Shown in pieces: positions 36,516 through 41,418 of a stretch of DNA of 45,456 nt; the first letter of the stretch is position 1, and each line of letters starts with the position of its first letter. This stretch comes from Nitrospirota bacterium (GTDB taxonomy: Bacteria > Nitrospirota > Thermodesulfovibrionia > Thermodesulfovibrionales > JdFR-85). Under the pieces are notes generated by a model. That model saw only the letters and a program-made list of their open reading frames with translations. It had not been told where the DNA came from and ran no database searches. Made by a program: the position numbers and the translations under genes. Location: positions 1 through 45,456 of the forward strand of contig JAYWMQ010000037.1 in NCBI GenBank assembly GCA_035873375.1. The letters are read 5' to 3'.

Positions 36516-37034
36516 TTGCAGATAGACAGGCACAGAGAGATAGGGTTTAAACTAACTCCACAGAGGCTGGCCATACTTGAATATCTCGAAGGTAACACGA
36601 GCCATCCCGCTGCAGAGGACATCTACCGGGAGGTAAAAAAGAGGTTTCCTACTATGTCCCTTGCAACTGTTTACAATACCCTTGAGGCACTGAAGAGGCG
36701 TGGAGGGGTTCTTGAACTCACAATTGACCCTGAAAGAAAGCATTATGACCCAAATACTGAGCCACATCACCATCTTATCTGTCTGAAGTGTAAAAAGATC
36801 GTTGATGTGCATAAAGATTTTAAGATAAATATCCCCCCGGATCAGAAACAGGGATTCAAGGTAACAGGAAATCATATAGAGTTTTACGGTATATGTCCTG
36901 AATGCATAAAAAAAGGAGGTGTTAATATGGCAGTCTTTAAGTGTGAAAGCTGCGGGGCCACAAAAGAAGGCAGGTGCAAACCAAAAAAGTGCCCGAAGTG
37001 CGGAGACACAGGCACAATGAAAAAGGAAGGATAG
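36516..37034 (+). CDS. PerR/Fur-type repressor fused to an RCKP rubredoxin-like knuckle
   Basis: Residues 1-85 form the winged helix (FKLTPQRLAILEYLEGNTSH, PAAEDIYREV, LATVYNTLEAL). Residues 86-135 form the dimerisation domain with the metal site HHHLICLKCKK and the zinc Cys pair CPEC. The family normally stops there. Here the frame continues into a 35-residue iron-binding unit (MAVFKCESCGATKEGRCKPK, then KCPKCGDTG), known as RCKP-type rubredoxin-like. AAAGGAGGT with an ATG at 36927 sits in frame inside the gene, so the tail may also be made separately. The start is TTG with AGGAGG nearby. It heads an oxidative-stress region and probably senses peroxide. Confidence 0.88.
   Translation: MQIDRHREIGFKLTPQRLAILEYLEGNTSHPAAEDIYREVKKRFPTMSLATVYNTLEALKRRGGVLELTIDPERKHYDPNTEPHHHLICLKCKKIVDVHKDFKINIPPDQKQGFKVTGNHIEFYGICPECIKKGGVNMAVFKCESCGATKEGRCKPKKCPKCGDTGTMKKEG
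36927..37034 (+). CDS. Possible separately translated RCKP rubredoxin-like protein (nested)
   Basis: An in-frame ATG follows AAAAGGAGGT by six bases, one of the best ribosome binding sites in the region. Starting there yields a 35-residue protein with two CxxC-like pairs (CESC, CPKC) like free-standing RCKP proteins of anaerobes. It is in frame with the repressor, with no stop between, so both long and short products are possible. Confidence 0.55.
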   Translation: MAVFKCESCGATKEGRCKPKKCPKCGDTGTMKKEG

Positions 37035-37097: not shown

Positions 37098-38138
37098 ATG
37101 AAGCGTAAAAGTTTGGGAGCATTCATCTTTTTTCTGATGTTCTTTGTAGTTTCACAGGCATATGCCGCAGATGTCCGGGAAAGGGCAAGCAAGACATTTA
37201 AGCCGATTCCCGAATCAGCCCCGGCCATTAAGGGAAATCCGGCAACCGGAATTAAGGTAGAGCTTGGCAAGATGCTCTATTTTGACCCCAGGCTATCATC
37301 CAGTGCACTCATTAGTTGTAACACCTGCCATAACGTCGGCATGGGGGGCATGGACTATCAGGAGACATCCACAGGTCATGGCTGGCAGAAGGGGCCACGG
37401 AACGCACCCACAGTGCTGAACTCCGTCTTTAACATAGCCCAGTTCTGGGATGGCCGGGCAAAAGACCTCATGGAGCAGGCCAAAGGCCCTGTGCAGGCAT
37501 CTGTTGAGATGAACAGCACTCCGGAAAGGGTTATAAAAACCCTCAAAAGCATGCCTGAATATATCCGGATATTTAAAGAGGCTTTTCCTGCCGGGAAGGA
37601 GCCTGTAACATTTGATAACATGGCAAAGGCAATCGAGGTATTTGAGGCTACACTACTTACACCTGACTCACGTTTTGACAAATATCTTAAAGGTGATAAA
37701 AACGCTCTCAGCAAGACAGAGACAGAGGGGCTGGGACTCTTTATGGATAAAGGCTGTTCCATCTGTCACGGTGGTGTCAACATGGGTGGACAGGGTTATT
37801 ACCCCTTTGGCGTGGTTGAAAGACCCGGGGCAGAGATTCTCCAGGGCGACAAGGGCCGGTTCAAGGTAACACAGGTAAAATCAGATGAATATGTCTTCAA
37901 GGCTCCCTCTTTAAGGAATATAGAGATAACGCCGCCCTATTTTCACTCAGGAAAGGTCTGGAACCTGAAGGATGCAATAACCATCATGGGTTCTGCCCAG
38001 TTAGGCATACAACTCACAGAGGCAGAGGCAGACAGAATCGTCTCTTTTTTAAAGACAACGACCGGGGTTCAGCCAAAAGTTGAATACCCTATACTGCCTG
38101 CTCCCACAGCAGACACGCCAAGACCAAAACTGGATTAA
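37098..38138 (+). CDS. Di-haem cytochrome c peroxidase
   Basis: The 346-residue periplasmic enzyme reduces hydrogen peroxide with electrons from c-type cytochromes or quinol. A signal peptide (1-23, ending AYA) is followed by two CxxCH haem sites, CNTCH at 74-78 and CSICH at 220-224, and by the CCP/MauG family blocks LGKMLYFDPRLS, RNAPTVLNSVFN, FWDGRAKDLMEQA and APSLRNIEITPPYFHSGKVWNL. AGGAG precedes the ATG. It follows the PerR-like gene by 63 bp in the same direction and is a plausible target of it. The exact electron donor is not evident. Confidence 0.93.
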   Translation: MKRKSLGAFIFFLMFFVVSQAYAADVRERASKTFKPIPESAPAIKGNPATGIKVELGKMLYFDPRLSSSALISCNTCHNVGMGGMDYQETSTGHGWQKGPRNAPTVLNSVFNIAQFWDGRAKDLMEQAKGPVQASVEMNSTPERVIKTLKSMPEYIRIFKEAFPAGKEPVTFDNMAKAIEVFEATLLTPDSRFDKYLKGDKNALSKTETEGLGLFMDKGCSICHGGVNMGGQGYYPFGVVERPGAEILQGDKGRFKVTQVKSDEYVFKAPSLRNIEITPPYFHSGKVWNLKDAITIMGSAQLGIQLTEAEADRIVSFLKTTTGVQPKVEYPILPAPTADTPRPKLD

Positions 38139-38271: not shown

Positions 38272-39489
38272 ATGAAGGCTGTTGAGATTAAACCGGACAT
38301 CTACTGGGTCGGAGCTATTGACTGGGCAGTAAGGGACTTTCATGGTTATGTAACACCAAACGGGACAACCTACAATAACTATCTGATTCTTGACTCTGAA
38401 GTTACCCTGGTCGACACTGTAAAACATGACTTTGCCGATATCGGAATAGGAAATATCAGGGAACTGACGGAACCGTCAAAAATCAGGAACATTGTAATCA
38501 ACCATATAGAGAACGACCATTTAACTGCGCTTGGCAGGGTGATGGAGCTGGCCCCTGAAGCCACCATCTATATAACAGAGCGCGGCAAAAAGGGGATGGA
38601 CAGGTTCTTTGACACCTCAAAATGGAATATAAAAATTGTGAAGACCGGCGATGAGCTCAGGACCGGAAAGTACACACTCCAGTTCATTGAAACGCCGATG
38701 CTGCACTGGCCGGACTCCATGATGACCTATGTAAAAGAGGCAAAGCTCCTTATCTCGCAGGATGCCTTTGGTCAGCACCTCGCATCAACTGCAAGGTTTG
38801 ATGATGATTTTGTGGATTGCGCCTCTCACACAGAGCTTGAGACCTCGGTAATCGATTACTATGCAAACATCCTGATGCCCTTTGGCACCCTTATAAAGTC
38901 AAAGATTGCACAGATTCAGAAGCTTGGGCTGGAGATTGACATGATAGCCCCTGACCACGGGATTATCTGGAGAAAGGACCCCCAAAAGGTTCTGAGGATG
39001 TATCTCGAAATGGCTGATGGCAAGGCAGACCTCAAGGTGGCAATAATTTACGACACCATGTGGCACAGCACAGAGCAGATGACGCTGCCCATAACGCAGG
39101 GTATTATGGACGAGGGAGTTGATTGCAAGGTTATCAAGTTGAGGGCCACACCGATGAGTGTTGCCATAAAGGAATTCTGGATGTCGAGAGGCTGTCTTGT
39201 AGGTTCCCCCACCTTGAACAATGAGGCATTCCCGTCTGTTGCAGAGTTTATCTATCATCTCAGGGGATTGAGACCAAAAAACAGGATTACAGGTGCCTTC
39301 GGAAGTTATGGCTGGGGCGGTGGTGCGGTAAAGTGGATTTACAACGAATTTCAGAACATGAAACTTGAAACCATGGGGCCGGGGGAAGAGGTACTTTACA
39401 GACCTTCAAAAGAGGATGAAGAAAAATGCTACGAGTTTGGCCGTGAATTTGCCCGAAGGGTAAAGGAATACCACAAAAACTACGAATAG
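38272..39489 (+). CDS. A-type flavoprotein, rubredoxin:oxygen oxidoreductase
   Basis: The 405-residue FprA/ROO-type protein reduces O2 to water, or NO in some relatives, with electrons from rubredoxin. The N-terminal metallo-beta-lactamase-like domain has the di-iron motif H78-x-E80-x-D82-H83 (NHIENDHLTAL), His145 (MLHWPDSM) and Asp164 (ISQDAFGQH). The flavodoxin domain from about 255 opens KVAIIYDTMWHSTEQM and contains VGSPTLNN and GAFGSYGWGGGAV for FMN binding. AACGGAGGAG precedes the ATG. The next gene encodes rubredoxin, its expected electron donor. Confidence 0.95.
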   Translation: MKAVEIKPDIYWVGAIDWAVRDFHGYVTPNGTTYNNYLILDSEVTLVDTVKHDFADIGIGNIRELTEPSKIRNIVINHIENDHLTALGRVMELAPEATIYITERGKKGMDRFFDTSKWNIKIVKTGDELRTGKYTLQFIETPMLHWPDSMMTYVKEAKLLISQDAFGQHLASTARFDDDFVDCASHTELETSVIDYYANILMPFGTLIKSKIAQIQKLGLEIDMIAPDHGIIWRKDPQKVLRMYLEMADGKADLKVAIIYDTMWHSTEQMTLPITQGIMDEGVDCKVIKLRATPMSVAIKEFWMSRGCLVGSPTLNNEAFPSVAEFIYHLRGLRPKNRITGAFGSYGWGGGAVKWIYNEFQNMKLETMGPGEEVLYRPSKEDEEKCYEFGREFARRVKEYHKNYE

Positions 39490-39504: not shown

Positions 39505-39633
39505 ATGTACAAATGCAGTGTATGCGGTTATATTTACGACGATGCAAAAGAGGAAGTACCATTTTCAGAGCTGCCCGATGACTGGGCATGCCCTGTATGC
39601 AATGCACCCAAGGAGGCCTTTGAGCCGGTCTAA
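39505..39633 (+). CDS. Rubredoxin, short type
   Basis: The 42-residue protein carries one mononuclear iron with four cysteines in [10 protein letters not shown] (Cys4, Cys7) and WACPVC (Cys29, Cys32). Rubredoxins are usually about 52 residues; this one lacks about ten in the loop between the cysteine pairs, like the short Desulfovibrio desulfuricans form. GGAGGT precedes the ATG. It lies between fprA and the superoxide reductase gene and can donate electrons to both. Confidence 0.95.
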
Positions 39634-39664: not shown

Positions 39665-40039
39665 ATGTCAGAAAAAAGCTTTTTTTGCGGAATAAACAGG
39701 CCCCAGGATCCTGCTAACATGACAGACCTGGAAAAGAAGCATACCCCGGTGATCGATTGTCCTGATACGGTAAAGTCAGGTGAACCCTTCCGGGTTAGCA
39801 TCAAGGTTGGCGAGATGCCCCACGTGATGGATGAAGGACATCACATTCAGTGGATCGATCTGTATTCCGGTGAGAATTTTAACGCAAGGGTCGAACTGAC
39901 CCCAGTATTCACAAGGCCGGAGGTAACCGTGACACTCCACAAGAGTGGTAAACACAGAACATCCACGTTAAGGGTTATTGAAAGGTGCAATCTTCATGGA
40001 GAGTGGGAGGCAACAAAGGAGATAACCATTACCGAATAA
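39665..40039 (+). CDS. Superoxide reductase (neelaredoxin type)
   Basis: The 124-residue enzyme reduces superoxide to hydrogen peroxide at a mononuclear iron site. Ligands are His26 in LEKKHTPVI, His53 in MPHVMDEG, His59 or His60 in GHHIQWIDLY, and Cys108 and His111 in ERCNLHGEW. The catalytic lysine is Lys24 or 25; the family usually has EKHxP, here EKKHTP. It has no N-terminal desulforedoxin domain, so it is the one-iron type. The start is ATG 39665 after GGAGGT. The peroxide it forms would be handled by the peroxiredoxin encoded next. Confidence 0.94.
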   Translation: MSEKSFFCGINRPQDPANMTDLEKKHTPVIDCPDTVKSGEPFRVSIKVGEMPHVMDEGHHIQWIDLYSGENFNARVELTPVFTRPEVTVTLHKSGKHRTSTLRVIERCNLHGEWEATKEITITE

Positions 40040-40061
40040 AAAAACACAGGGGGGACAGAAC

Positions 40062-40673
40062 ATGGAAGAGGTTTGCTGTTGTTTAAGGGTTGGACATGAT
40101 GTGCCGGACTTCACCATTGAAACCTATGAGCCGTCAAAAGGGGATTTTGGAGAGATAAGCCTCGAAACACAAAAGGCTGACAGGAAGTGGACAATCCTCT
40201 TCTTTTATCCGGCGGACTTTACCTTTGTCTGAGCTACGGAGTTTGCTGCTCTGGCAGAGCAGTACGAAAGATTCAGCAAGATGGGGGCTGAGGTAATTAC
40301 TGTCAGCACCGACACAAAGTTTGTGCATCTTGCATGGCAAAGGGAAGAAAAGATGCTGGAGAATGTCAGGTATCCGATGGGCTCGGACCCAACAGGAAAC
40401 CTTTCACGTCTCTTCGGTATATATGACGAAGAGACCGGACTTGCATTGAGGGGGACTTTTATAATCAGTCCTGAGGGAAAGCTCCTTAATTCCGAGGTAA
40501 ACTTCTATAACCTGGGAAGGAATATCGACGAGTTGATGCGGAAGTTCAAGGCGAACCTTCACCTTGCCAAACATACAAAAGAAGGTTGTCCATCGAAATG
40601 GAAGGACGAAGGGGACAAGACACTTACACCATCAGCGAAGTTAGTGGGTAAGGTCTACGAGGCATTGAAATAA
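40062..40673 (+). CDS. Selenocysteine-containing 2-Cys peroxiredoxin (UGA at the catalytic residue)
   Basis: One frame of 204 codons runs from ATG 40062 to TAA 40673, interrupted only by TGA at 40230-40232 (codon 57). Both sides are peroxiredoxin: upstream TILFFYPADFTFV, downstream ATEFAALAEQYERF, then SDPTGNLSRLFGIYDEETGL and ALRGTFIISPEGK. Family enzymes read FTFVCPTE, so the TGA stands exactly at the peroxidatic cysteine. A 7-bp hairpin follows at 40246-40262. Cys176 (EGCPSKW) is the resolving cysteine. It reduces peroxides and lies directly after superoxide reductase. TGA serves as a normal stop elsewhere in the window, so selenocysteine insertion is the best reading. A nonsense mutation is the alternative. 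Three cysteines at 5-7 are unusual. Confidence 0.9.
40233..40263 (+). promoter_or_regulatory. Candidate bacterial SECIS hairpin
   Basis: CTGCTCT (40246-40252) and AGAGCAG (40256-40262) pair perfectly around GGC, with a G-U and a U-A pair able to extend the stem. The loop begins about 23 bases after the U of the UGA, within the range known for bacterial SECIS elements, and has G at its start. Confidence 0.7.
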
Positions 40674-40708: not shown

Positions 40709-40837
40709 ATGGCTGTCAGAAATACGGGAGAAAAGTACAGGTGCAATGTCTGCGGCAATGAGGTTGTGGTTACAAAGGTCGGGGGCGGAGAACTGGTCTG
40801 CTGCGGCCAGCCCATGGAATTGATGCCGGAAGAATAG
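40709..40837 (+). CDS. Desulforedoxin-like protein
   Basis: The 42-residue protein matches the FeS4 desulforedoxin domain: CNVCG (Cys12, Cys15), then VTKVGGGELVCCGQPM with adjacent Cys31 and Cys32, the CC pair that marks desulforedoxins. It would carry a rubredoxin-like iron as a homodimer. It corresponds to the N-terminal domain missing from the superoxide reductase encoded upstream, so the two functions are split here. AAAAGGAGG precedes the ATG. Confidence 0.93.
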   Translation: MAVRNTGEKYRCNVCGNEVVVTKVGGGELVCCGQPMELMPEE

Positions 40838-40848
40838 AGCGGATTAAA

Positions 40849-41418
40849 TTGAGAGTCATTACATTTCTTGGAAGTCCGAGGACAGAAGGAAACACAGAAC
40901 TCCTGCTGAGAGAGAGCATTCGGGCAATTGAAGAAGAGGGTCACTCGGTGACCCTCTTCAGGCCCTCACAAATGGAGCTCTCACCCTGCCTTAGCTGTGG
41001 TGCCTGTGAAGAAACCGGGGAGTGTGTAATAAGTGACGATATGGATGAGGTCTACAGCGCAATCCGTGAAGGAGACCGTTTTATTCTTGCCTCGCCTATA
41101 TTCTTCTTTGGCCTTACTGCACAGATCAAGGCCCTTATTGACAGATGCCAGTCCTTCTGGTGCGAAAAATACCTGCTTAAAAGACCAATCCCTGAAAAAC
41201 CAAATGGCAGAAAAGGATTACTTCTGATGGTTGGAGGCATGAAAAAAGAGGCCGGGTTCAGGTGCGGTGACGCCACAACAACCGCCTTTTTCAGGAGTAT
41301 CAGTGTCCCTGAGCACGAAACCCTCTTTTATCCCGGCATCGACGCCAAAGGAGCCATCAGGGAACACCCCACGGCCCTGAAAGAGGCTTATGAGGCAGCA
41401 AAGAGGTTGGTTTACTGA
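40849..41418 (+). CDS. Flavodoxin-family NAD(P)H/iron-sulfur flavoprotein
   Basis: The 189-residue protein belongs to the NADPH-dependent FMN reductase/iron-sulfur flavoprotein family. It opens MRVITFLGSPRTEGNTELLL (FMN phosphate loop), has a compact cysteine motif CLSCGACEETGECVISDD (around 47-64) suitable for an iron-sulfur cluster, and the flavin segment ASPIFFFGLTAQIKALIDRC. The TTG start, 11 bp after the desulforedoxin gene, has only a weak ribosome binding site, suggesting coupling. It may supply electrons to the small iron proteins of the operon (inference). Confidence 0.85.
   Translation: MRVITFLGSPRTEGNTELLLRESIRAIEEEGHSVTLFRPSQMELSPCLSCGACEETGECVISDDMDEVYSAIREGDRFILASPIFFFGLTAQIKALIDRCQSFWCEKYLLKRPIPEKPNGRKGLLLMVGGMKKEAGFRCGDATTTAFFRSISVPEHETLFYPGIDAKGAIREHPTALKEAYEAAKRLVY

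Follow-up and report, generated by a model that had tools for sequence, protein, structure and literature searches.

Selenocysteine (Sec)-containing peroxiredoxins are a kind of selenoprotein that is already known and forms an established family. The Sec-peroxiredoxin PrxU of Eubacterium acidaminophilum, with the motif PxxxTxxU, has been characterised experimentally (Sohling et al. 2001, as cited in PMC13188914), and "Peroxiredoxin, TxxU" is a catalogued selenoprotein family (PMC13188914). Sec-peroxiredoxin is also the second commonest known selenoprotein family in the Sargasso Sea (PMC1088965), and a 2006 survey reported it from several anaerobes (PMC1794560). The original prediction of a probable selenoprotein at the locus described here, which spoke of enzymes known from a few anaerobes, thus understated a family that is both widespread and catalogued.

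The locus lies in a window of 45,456 nucleotides (the whole stretch of DNA that was analysed) from a Nitrospirota bacterium. Like PrxU and the TxxU family, its product combines a predicted peroxidatic Sec in a PxxxTxxU motif with an AhpC/TSA domain, encoded by a bacterial gene with an in-frame UGA. It differs from PrxU in its Nitrospirota host, in its UATE motif accompanied by one near-frozen hairpin, and, by score, in subfamily: the protein reaches 185.7 bits against the PrxU equivalog NF040737 (curated NCBIfam cut-off 270) and is slightly nearer to the AhpC equivalog TIGR03137 (197.9 bits, cut-off 272). Because both scores fall below their cut-offs, we file the protein as a Sec-peroxiredoxin that is neither PrxU nor AhpC proper. 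With Salmonella AhpC (1n8j/4ma9) it shares the fold and the peroxidatic and resolving positions; unlike that enzyme, it has a predicted Sec where the peroxidatic Cys would stand, Ala instead of the Pro that follows and an extra N-terminal Cys-Cys pair, and no full AhpF over the cut-off was found in its genome. What is new is how broadly the family occurs in Nitrospirota, together with the frozen hairpin, the probable reversions to Cys and a partly conserved oxidative-stress neighbourhood.

The peroxiredoxin gene and its in-frame TGA

When TGA is translated as Sec (U), positions 40062-40673 form one frame of 203 codons whose sole internal TGA is codon 57, giving a product of 203 amino acids (MEEVCCCL...YPADFTFVUATEFAALAEQ...EGCPSKWK...EALK, then stop). 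Translation table 11 lists just a C-terminal ORF of 130 amino acids (40281-40673) for the same stretch, and so the expectations of a complete AhpC-type peroxiredoxin if the TGA is decoded, and of a 130-residue fragment from ordinary gene calling, were both borne out. The 203-residue protein contains an AhpC-TSA domain (Pfam E 2.6e-36), and P50, T54 and U57 of the PxxxTxxU motif are conserved among homologues. The predicted structure, built from 36 homologues, is confident (pLDDT 88.9, pTM 0.86) and resembles Salmonella AhpC entries most closely (TM 0.81-0.89, ~40% identity); a sequence search of solved structures is concordant with them. This fold and the C-terminal resolving Cys, which had been predicted at residue 176 and is found there in EGCPSKW, are those of a typical 2-Cys peroxiredoxin. 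Features of the gene and its surroundings are collected in Table 1.

Table 1. Features of the peroxiredoxin gene and its neighbourhood (positions in the window)
Feature	Position	Strand	Remarks
PerR-like Fur-family regulator, RCKP rubredoxin-like C-terminal domain	36516-37034	+	found close to the peroxiredoxin in 32/80 named loci
Di-haem cytochrome c peroxidase / MauG family protein	37098-38138	+	
FprA-type flavodiiron protein	38272-39489	+	found close to the peroxiredoxin in 24/80 named loci
Rubredoxin	39505-39633	+	
Superoxide reductase (SOR; desulfoferrodoxin ferrous iron-binding domain only)	39665-40039	+	SOR found close to the peroxiredoxin in 19/80 named loci
GGGGGG, purine-rich Shine-Dalgarno-like stretch	40049-40054	+	7 nt before ATG 40062; seen in the sequence itself
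Predicted Sec-containing AhpC/TSA-type peroxiredoxin gene	40062-40673	+	203 aa through TGA; domain, relatives, fold
In-frame TGA, predicted Sec codon U57	40230-40232	+	peroxidatic position in P50-x3-T54-x2-U57
Bacterial SECIS-type hairpin, 7 bp, apical loop GGC	40246-40262	+	synonymous codons nearly frozen; compensatory changes seen; stem degraded in Cys homologues
Resolving Cys176 codon, EGCP-x-KW	40587-40589	+	column nearly invariant among 36 homologues
Stand-alone desulforedoxin-like (desulfoferrodoxin N-terminal) domain, 42 aa	40709-40837	+	
NADPH-dependent FMN reductase-like flavoprotein	40849-41418	+	

We note two further traits of the protein. The N-terminal Cys-Cys pair (xCCGLxVGQ; 40062-40085) is kept in almost all Nitrospirota homologues, in Sec and Cys forms alike. 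The residue after the catalytic position (40233-40235) is Ala in 82 of 82 distinct Sec forms and Pro in the clade of Cys forms with the motif CPTE.

Because its frame is broken under table 11, the gene could be read as a pseudogene of a Cys-peroxiredoxin that has acquired a nonsense mutation. The comparative data refute that reading. The same TGA occurs in dozens of species, dN/dS downstream of it lies between 0.01 and 0.07 against six relatives and is no higher than upstream where it could be estimated, the hairpin is frozen and there is no second lesion. Sequence comparison thus indicates purifying selection downstream of the TGA, and we give the pseudogene practically no credence. A sequencing error is ruled out by the presence of the same TGA in independent congeneric assemblies (96% and 93% identical) and in dozens of assemblies overall.

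The homologues bear on two points: (i) how widely the TGA is distributed; and (ii) what replaces it. Homologues occur in 33 of 41 genomes from the same order; codon 57 is TGA in 24 and a Cys codon in seven. A scan of named genomes yielded 80 loci, 79 of them readable at codon 57 (73 TGA, 6 Cys); they belong mainly to Nitrospirota (Thermodesulfovibrionia/-ales), and the remainder are in MAGs whose labels include Acidobacteriota, Planctomycetota, Rokuibacteriota and Deltaproteobacteria. With TGA and Cys loci in so many genomes and phyla, the gene is widespread. Thirteen distinct homologues have TGT or TGC aligned with the UGA, and so the exchange of Cys for Sec occurs exactly at codon 57, the position at which the TGA had been said to replace the peroxidatic Cys (YPADFTFV-U-ATE). 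Two features expected of a bacterial selenoprotein gene, a coding sequence conserved on either side of the UGA and Cys homologues that align Cys with it, are therefore both present.

The hairpin and the switches between Sec and Cys

A SECIS-like stem-loop in bacteria is expected just 3' of the UGA, with a G in a small apical loop (PMC1088965). The hairpin CTGCTCT-GGC-AGAGCAG (stem 40246-40252/40256-40262) was found exactly where it had been predicted; it has seven base pairs and a small G-containing loop, 20 nt after the UGA, and compensatory changes accompany the stem. How often would coding constraints alone produce such a structure? Twelve of the 1536 synonymous codings of AALAEQ form all seven pairs, as do 146 of 20000 draws from local codon usage, and the folding energy is -12.8 kcal/mol compared with -7.6 +/- 2.4 kcal/mol for recodings, 66 of 3000 of which fold as low. 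A hairpin that arose by chance over the AALAEQ coding is thus unlikely, although the evidence from the single sequence is by itself moderate and it is the comparative data that settle the matter.

Those data are of several kinds. An average of 6.87 of the seven stem pairs form in 82 distinct Sec sequences, as against 3.31 of seven in 13 distinct Cys sequences. Synonymous choice is frozen within the hairpin (Ala GCT in 77/78, Leu CTG in 81/81, Glu GAG in 76/77 and Gln CAG in 75/75), and the frozen codons extend to MAGs of lineages such as Rokuibacteriota, while the Ala codons that flank the hairpin use all four codons freely. Double compensatory changes preserve pairing at 40247-40261, 40249-40259 and 40250-40258. 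Against this consistency, the hairpin of L046, a distant homologue, is a different one, though it too has 7 bp and is similarly placed. When the gene region was scanned with Rfam, no match rose above chance level. Relatives lacking the hairpin, with decay beyond the TGA, had been named as what would speak against a selenoprotein; in the relatives, both the hairpin and the downstream frame are kept.

Trees built with the catalytic column masked imply repeated exchange between the two amino acids, with at least five Sec/Cys switches in a quick tree and five to six in the bootstrap trees of a more careful one, a bootstrap that is not fully settled. In four of the switches the Cys forms are nested within the Sec group, carry CATE instead of CPTE and have a hairpin that is partly or wholly eroded; remnants are seen in L142 and L184, which retain five of seven pairs, and in L206, which retains one. 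Since the method infers no root, the direction of the switches is judged from the nesting, the motif and what is left of the hairpin. Taken together these suggest that at least four lineages are probably reversions from Sec to Cys, recognisable because the Ala derived from UATE has been retained in CATE. The survey of 2006 (Table 1 of PMC1794560) listed 12 Sec-peroxiredoxins, with five Cys-to-Sec events and no Sec-to-Cys events. The CATE Cys-peroxiredoxins nested among Sec forms are those of loci L030, L031, L139, L142, L184, L189, L205 and L206.

Decoding of the UGA and an additional tRNA-Cys

The source genome (2.67 Mb, 99% complete) encodes selA (598 bits), selB (378 bits, the single match over the cut-off), selD (330 bits) and a tRNA-Sec with a UCA anticodon (73.5 bits). 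The original prediction had staked itself on the presence of selA, selB, selC and selD; with all four found, the objection that the machinery might be absent falls away. By its gene content, the genome thus holds all that is required for a Sec peroxiredoxin. The reading frame of selD (G000:C2:65053-65967, L095) likewise contains a TGA, in KVKAAG-U-AGKLGPGDL, with a hairpin, GGTC-CGGGT-GACC, after it. SelD is another predicted selenoprotein of the genome, and by virtue of its own UGA and hairpin it provides independent support for a working Sec pathway.

A second tRNA in the genome scores above the tRNA-Sec cut-off (58 bits to the tRNA-Sec model) and has the anticodon GCA and U73 (G000:C44:44398-44490; L002:1501-1593). 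An ordinary tRNA-Cys is also present, on another contig (C4:25959-26002); a pattern search beginning TCTGCAAA... missed ordinary tRNA-Cys genes, and a looser pattern recovered them. The tRNA-Sec-shaped tRNA-Cys(GCA) occurs in 22 of 41 relatives, L076-L093 and G002:C90 (L102) being among its loci. Its consensus fold is 8/5, with a long variable arm and a 5-pair T-stem; the 8-pair acceptor stem consists of seven consensus pairs plus a terminal G-C pair that the alignment shifts in some rows, and the compensatory changes include the last acceptor pair (columns 9/110). A class of tRNA-Cys described earlier, selC*, whose hosts include Nitrospirae (Mukai et al. 2017, as reviewed in PMC7609411), likewise has GCA, U73, a long variable arm and an 8-bp acceptor stem, but in that account it is 8/4 with a bulged A51a. 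Neither the bulge nor an 8/4 branch was seen in any of the 18 aligned sequences, whose T-stem has five pairs. As judged from its sequence, the additional tRNA-Cys is close to, and not identical with, the described selC* tRNA-Cys.

The coexistence of these tRNAs raises another scenario, in which the tRNA-Sec-shaped tRNA-Cys(GCA), perhaps through SelB, decodes the UGA as Cys in some or all cases, so that the enzyme is selenium-free or a mixture of Sec and Cys forms. The tRNA is indeed present besides the ordinary tRNA-Cys, its 8/5 body is backed by covariation, and SelB has been suggested to accept tRNA-Cys of the related selC* class (PMC7609411). However, the genome has a normal tRNA-Sec(UCA) and all of the Sec genes, a GCA anticodon pairs improperly with UGA, and no second selB scores over the cut-off. 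The tRNA is moreover unlinked to the Sec-peroxiredoxin, being found in 13 of 24 genomes with it and 9 of 17 without (Fisher p = 1), and we therefore do not use it to explain the peroxiredoxin gene. We regard Cys decoding as very unlikely, and it is similarly improbable that Sec-tRNA(UCA) and the tRNA-Sec-shaped tRNA-Cys(GCA) compete for the peroxiredoxin UGA. If such competition did occur, the cell could use a single gene to produce the enzyme with either selenium or sulfur.

At bacterial Sec codons, decoding is known to compete with termination. It is conceivable on that account that readthrough is regulated, a 56-residue N-terminal product being the default and the complete enzyme appearing only under ample selenium. 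There is no evidence of function for a 56-residue product, and in the predicted structure the residues before the TGA appear to be just part of the fold; regulated readthrough of this kind is in our judgement extremely improbable.

The reading that we favour is that 40062-40673 almost certainly encodes a Sec-containing typical 2-Cys (AhpC-like) peroxiredoxin in which the UGA at 40230 is decoded as Sec57. The Sec machinery, the TGA kept in relatives, the hairpin and the purifying selection downstream all support the selenoprotein originally proposed.

Neighbourhood and possible function

The peroxiredoxin gene is sixth in a series of genes on the + strand, in the order PerR-like regulator, MauG/CCP, FprA, rubredoxin, SOR, peroxiredoxin, desulforedoxin domain and FMN reductase. 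The two desulfoferrodoxin domains are thus separate genes (39665-40039 and 40709-40837) that flank it. At least one of these neighbours lies near the peroxiredoxin in 40 of the 80 named loci, some of which are too short to include flanks, and the PerR-like gene is the most constant. The oxidative-stress neighbourhood is therefore partly conserved: the placement of the gene beside SOR and FprA, singled out earlier as notable, is real, but it is common to part of the Nitrospirota relatives and so is not unique. Scanning the cluster for promoters and terminators gave results no better than shuffles, and we accordingly claim no operon borders.

By analogy with established bacterial selenium biology, SelB carrying Sec-tRNA(UCA) would bind the hairpin at 40246-40262 and the UGA at 40230 would be read as Sec57. 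Attack by Sec57 on its substrate, H2O2 or an organic hydroperoxide, would then yield a selenenic acid, which Cys176 could resolve as a selenenyl-sulfide, and a thioredoxin-type reductant would recycle the enzyme; the genome encodes two thioredoxin-reductase-like proteins. In a setting of PerR-like regulator, flavodiiron oxygen reductase, rubredoxin and SOR, with which it may be co-regulated, the peroxiredoxin would remove the peroxide generated by superoxide reductase. A peroxidase that clears SOR-made H2O2 would fit naturally into the oxidative-stress cluster.

Finally, the analysis rescues a gene that is cut short by standard annotation and shows how common Sec-peroxiredoxin is among Thermodesulfovibrionia and related Nitrospirota. 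We suggest that the gene set provides a natural series of probable Sec-to-Cys switches with decaying insertion hairpins.
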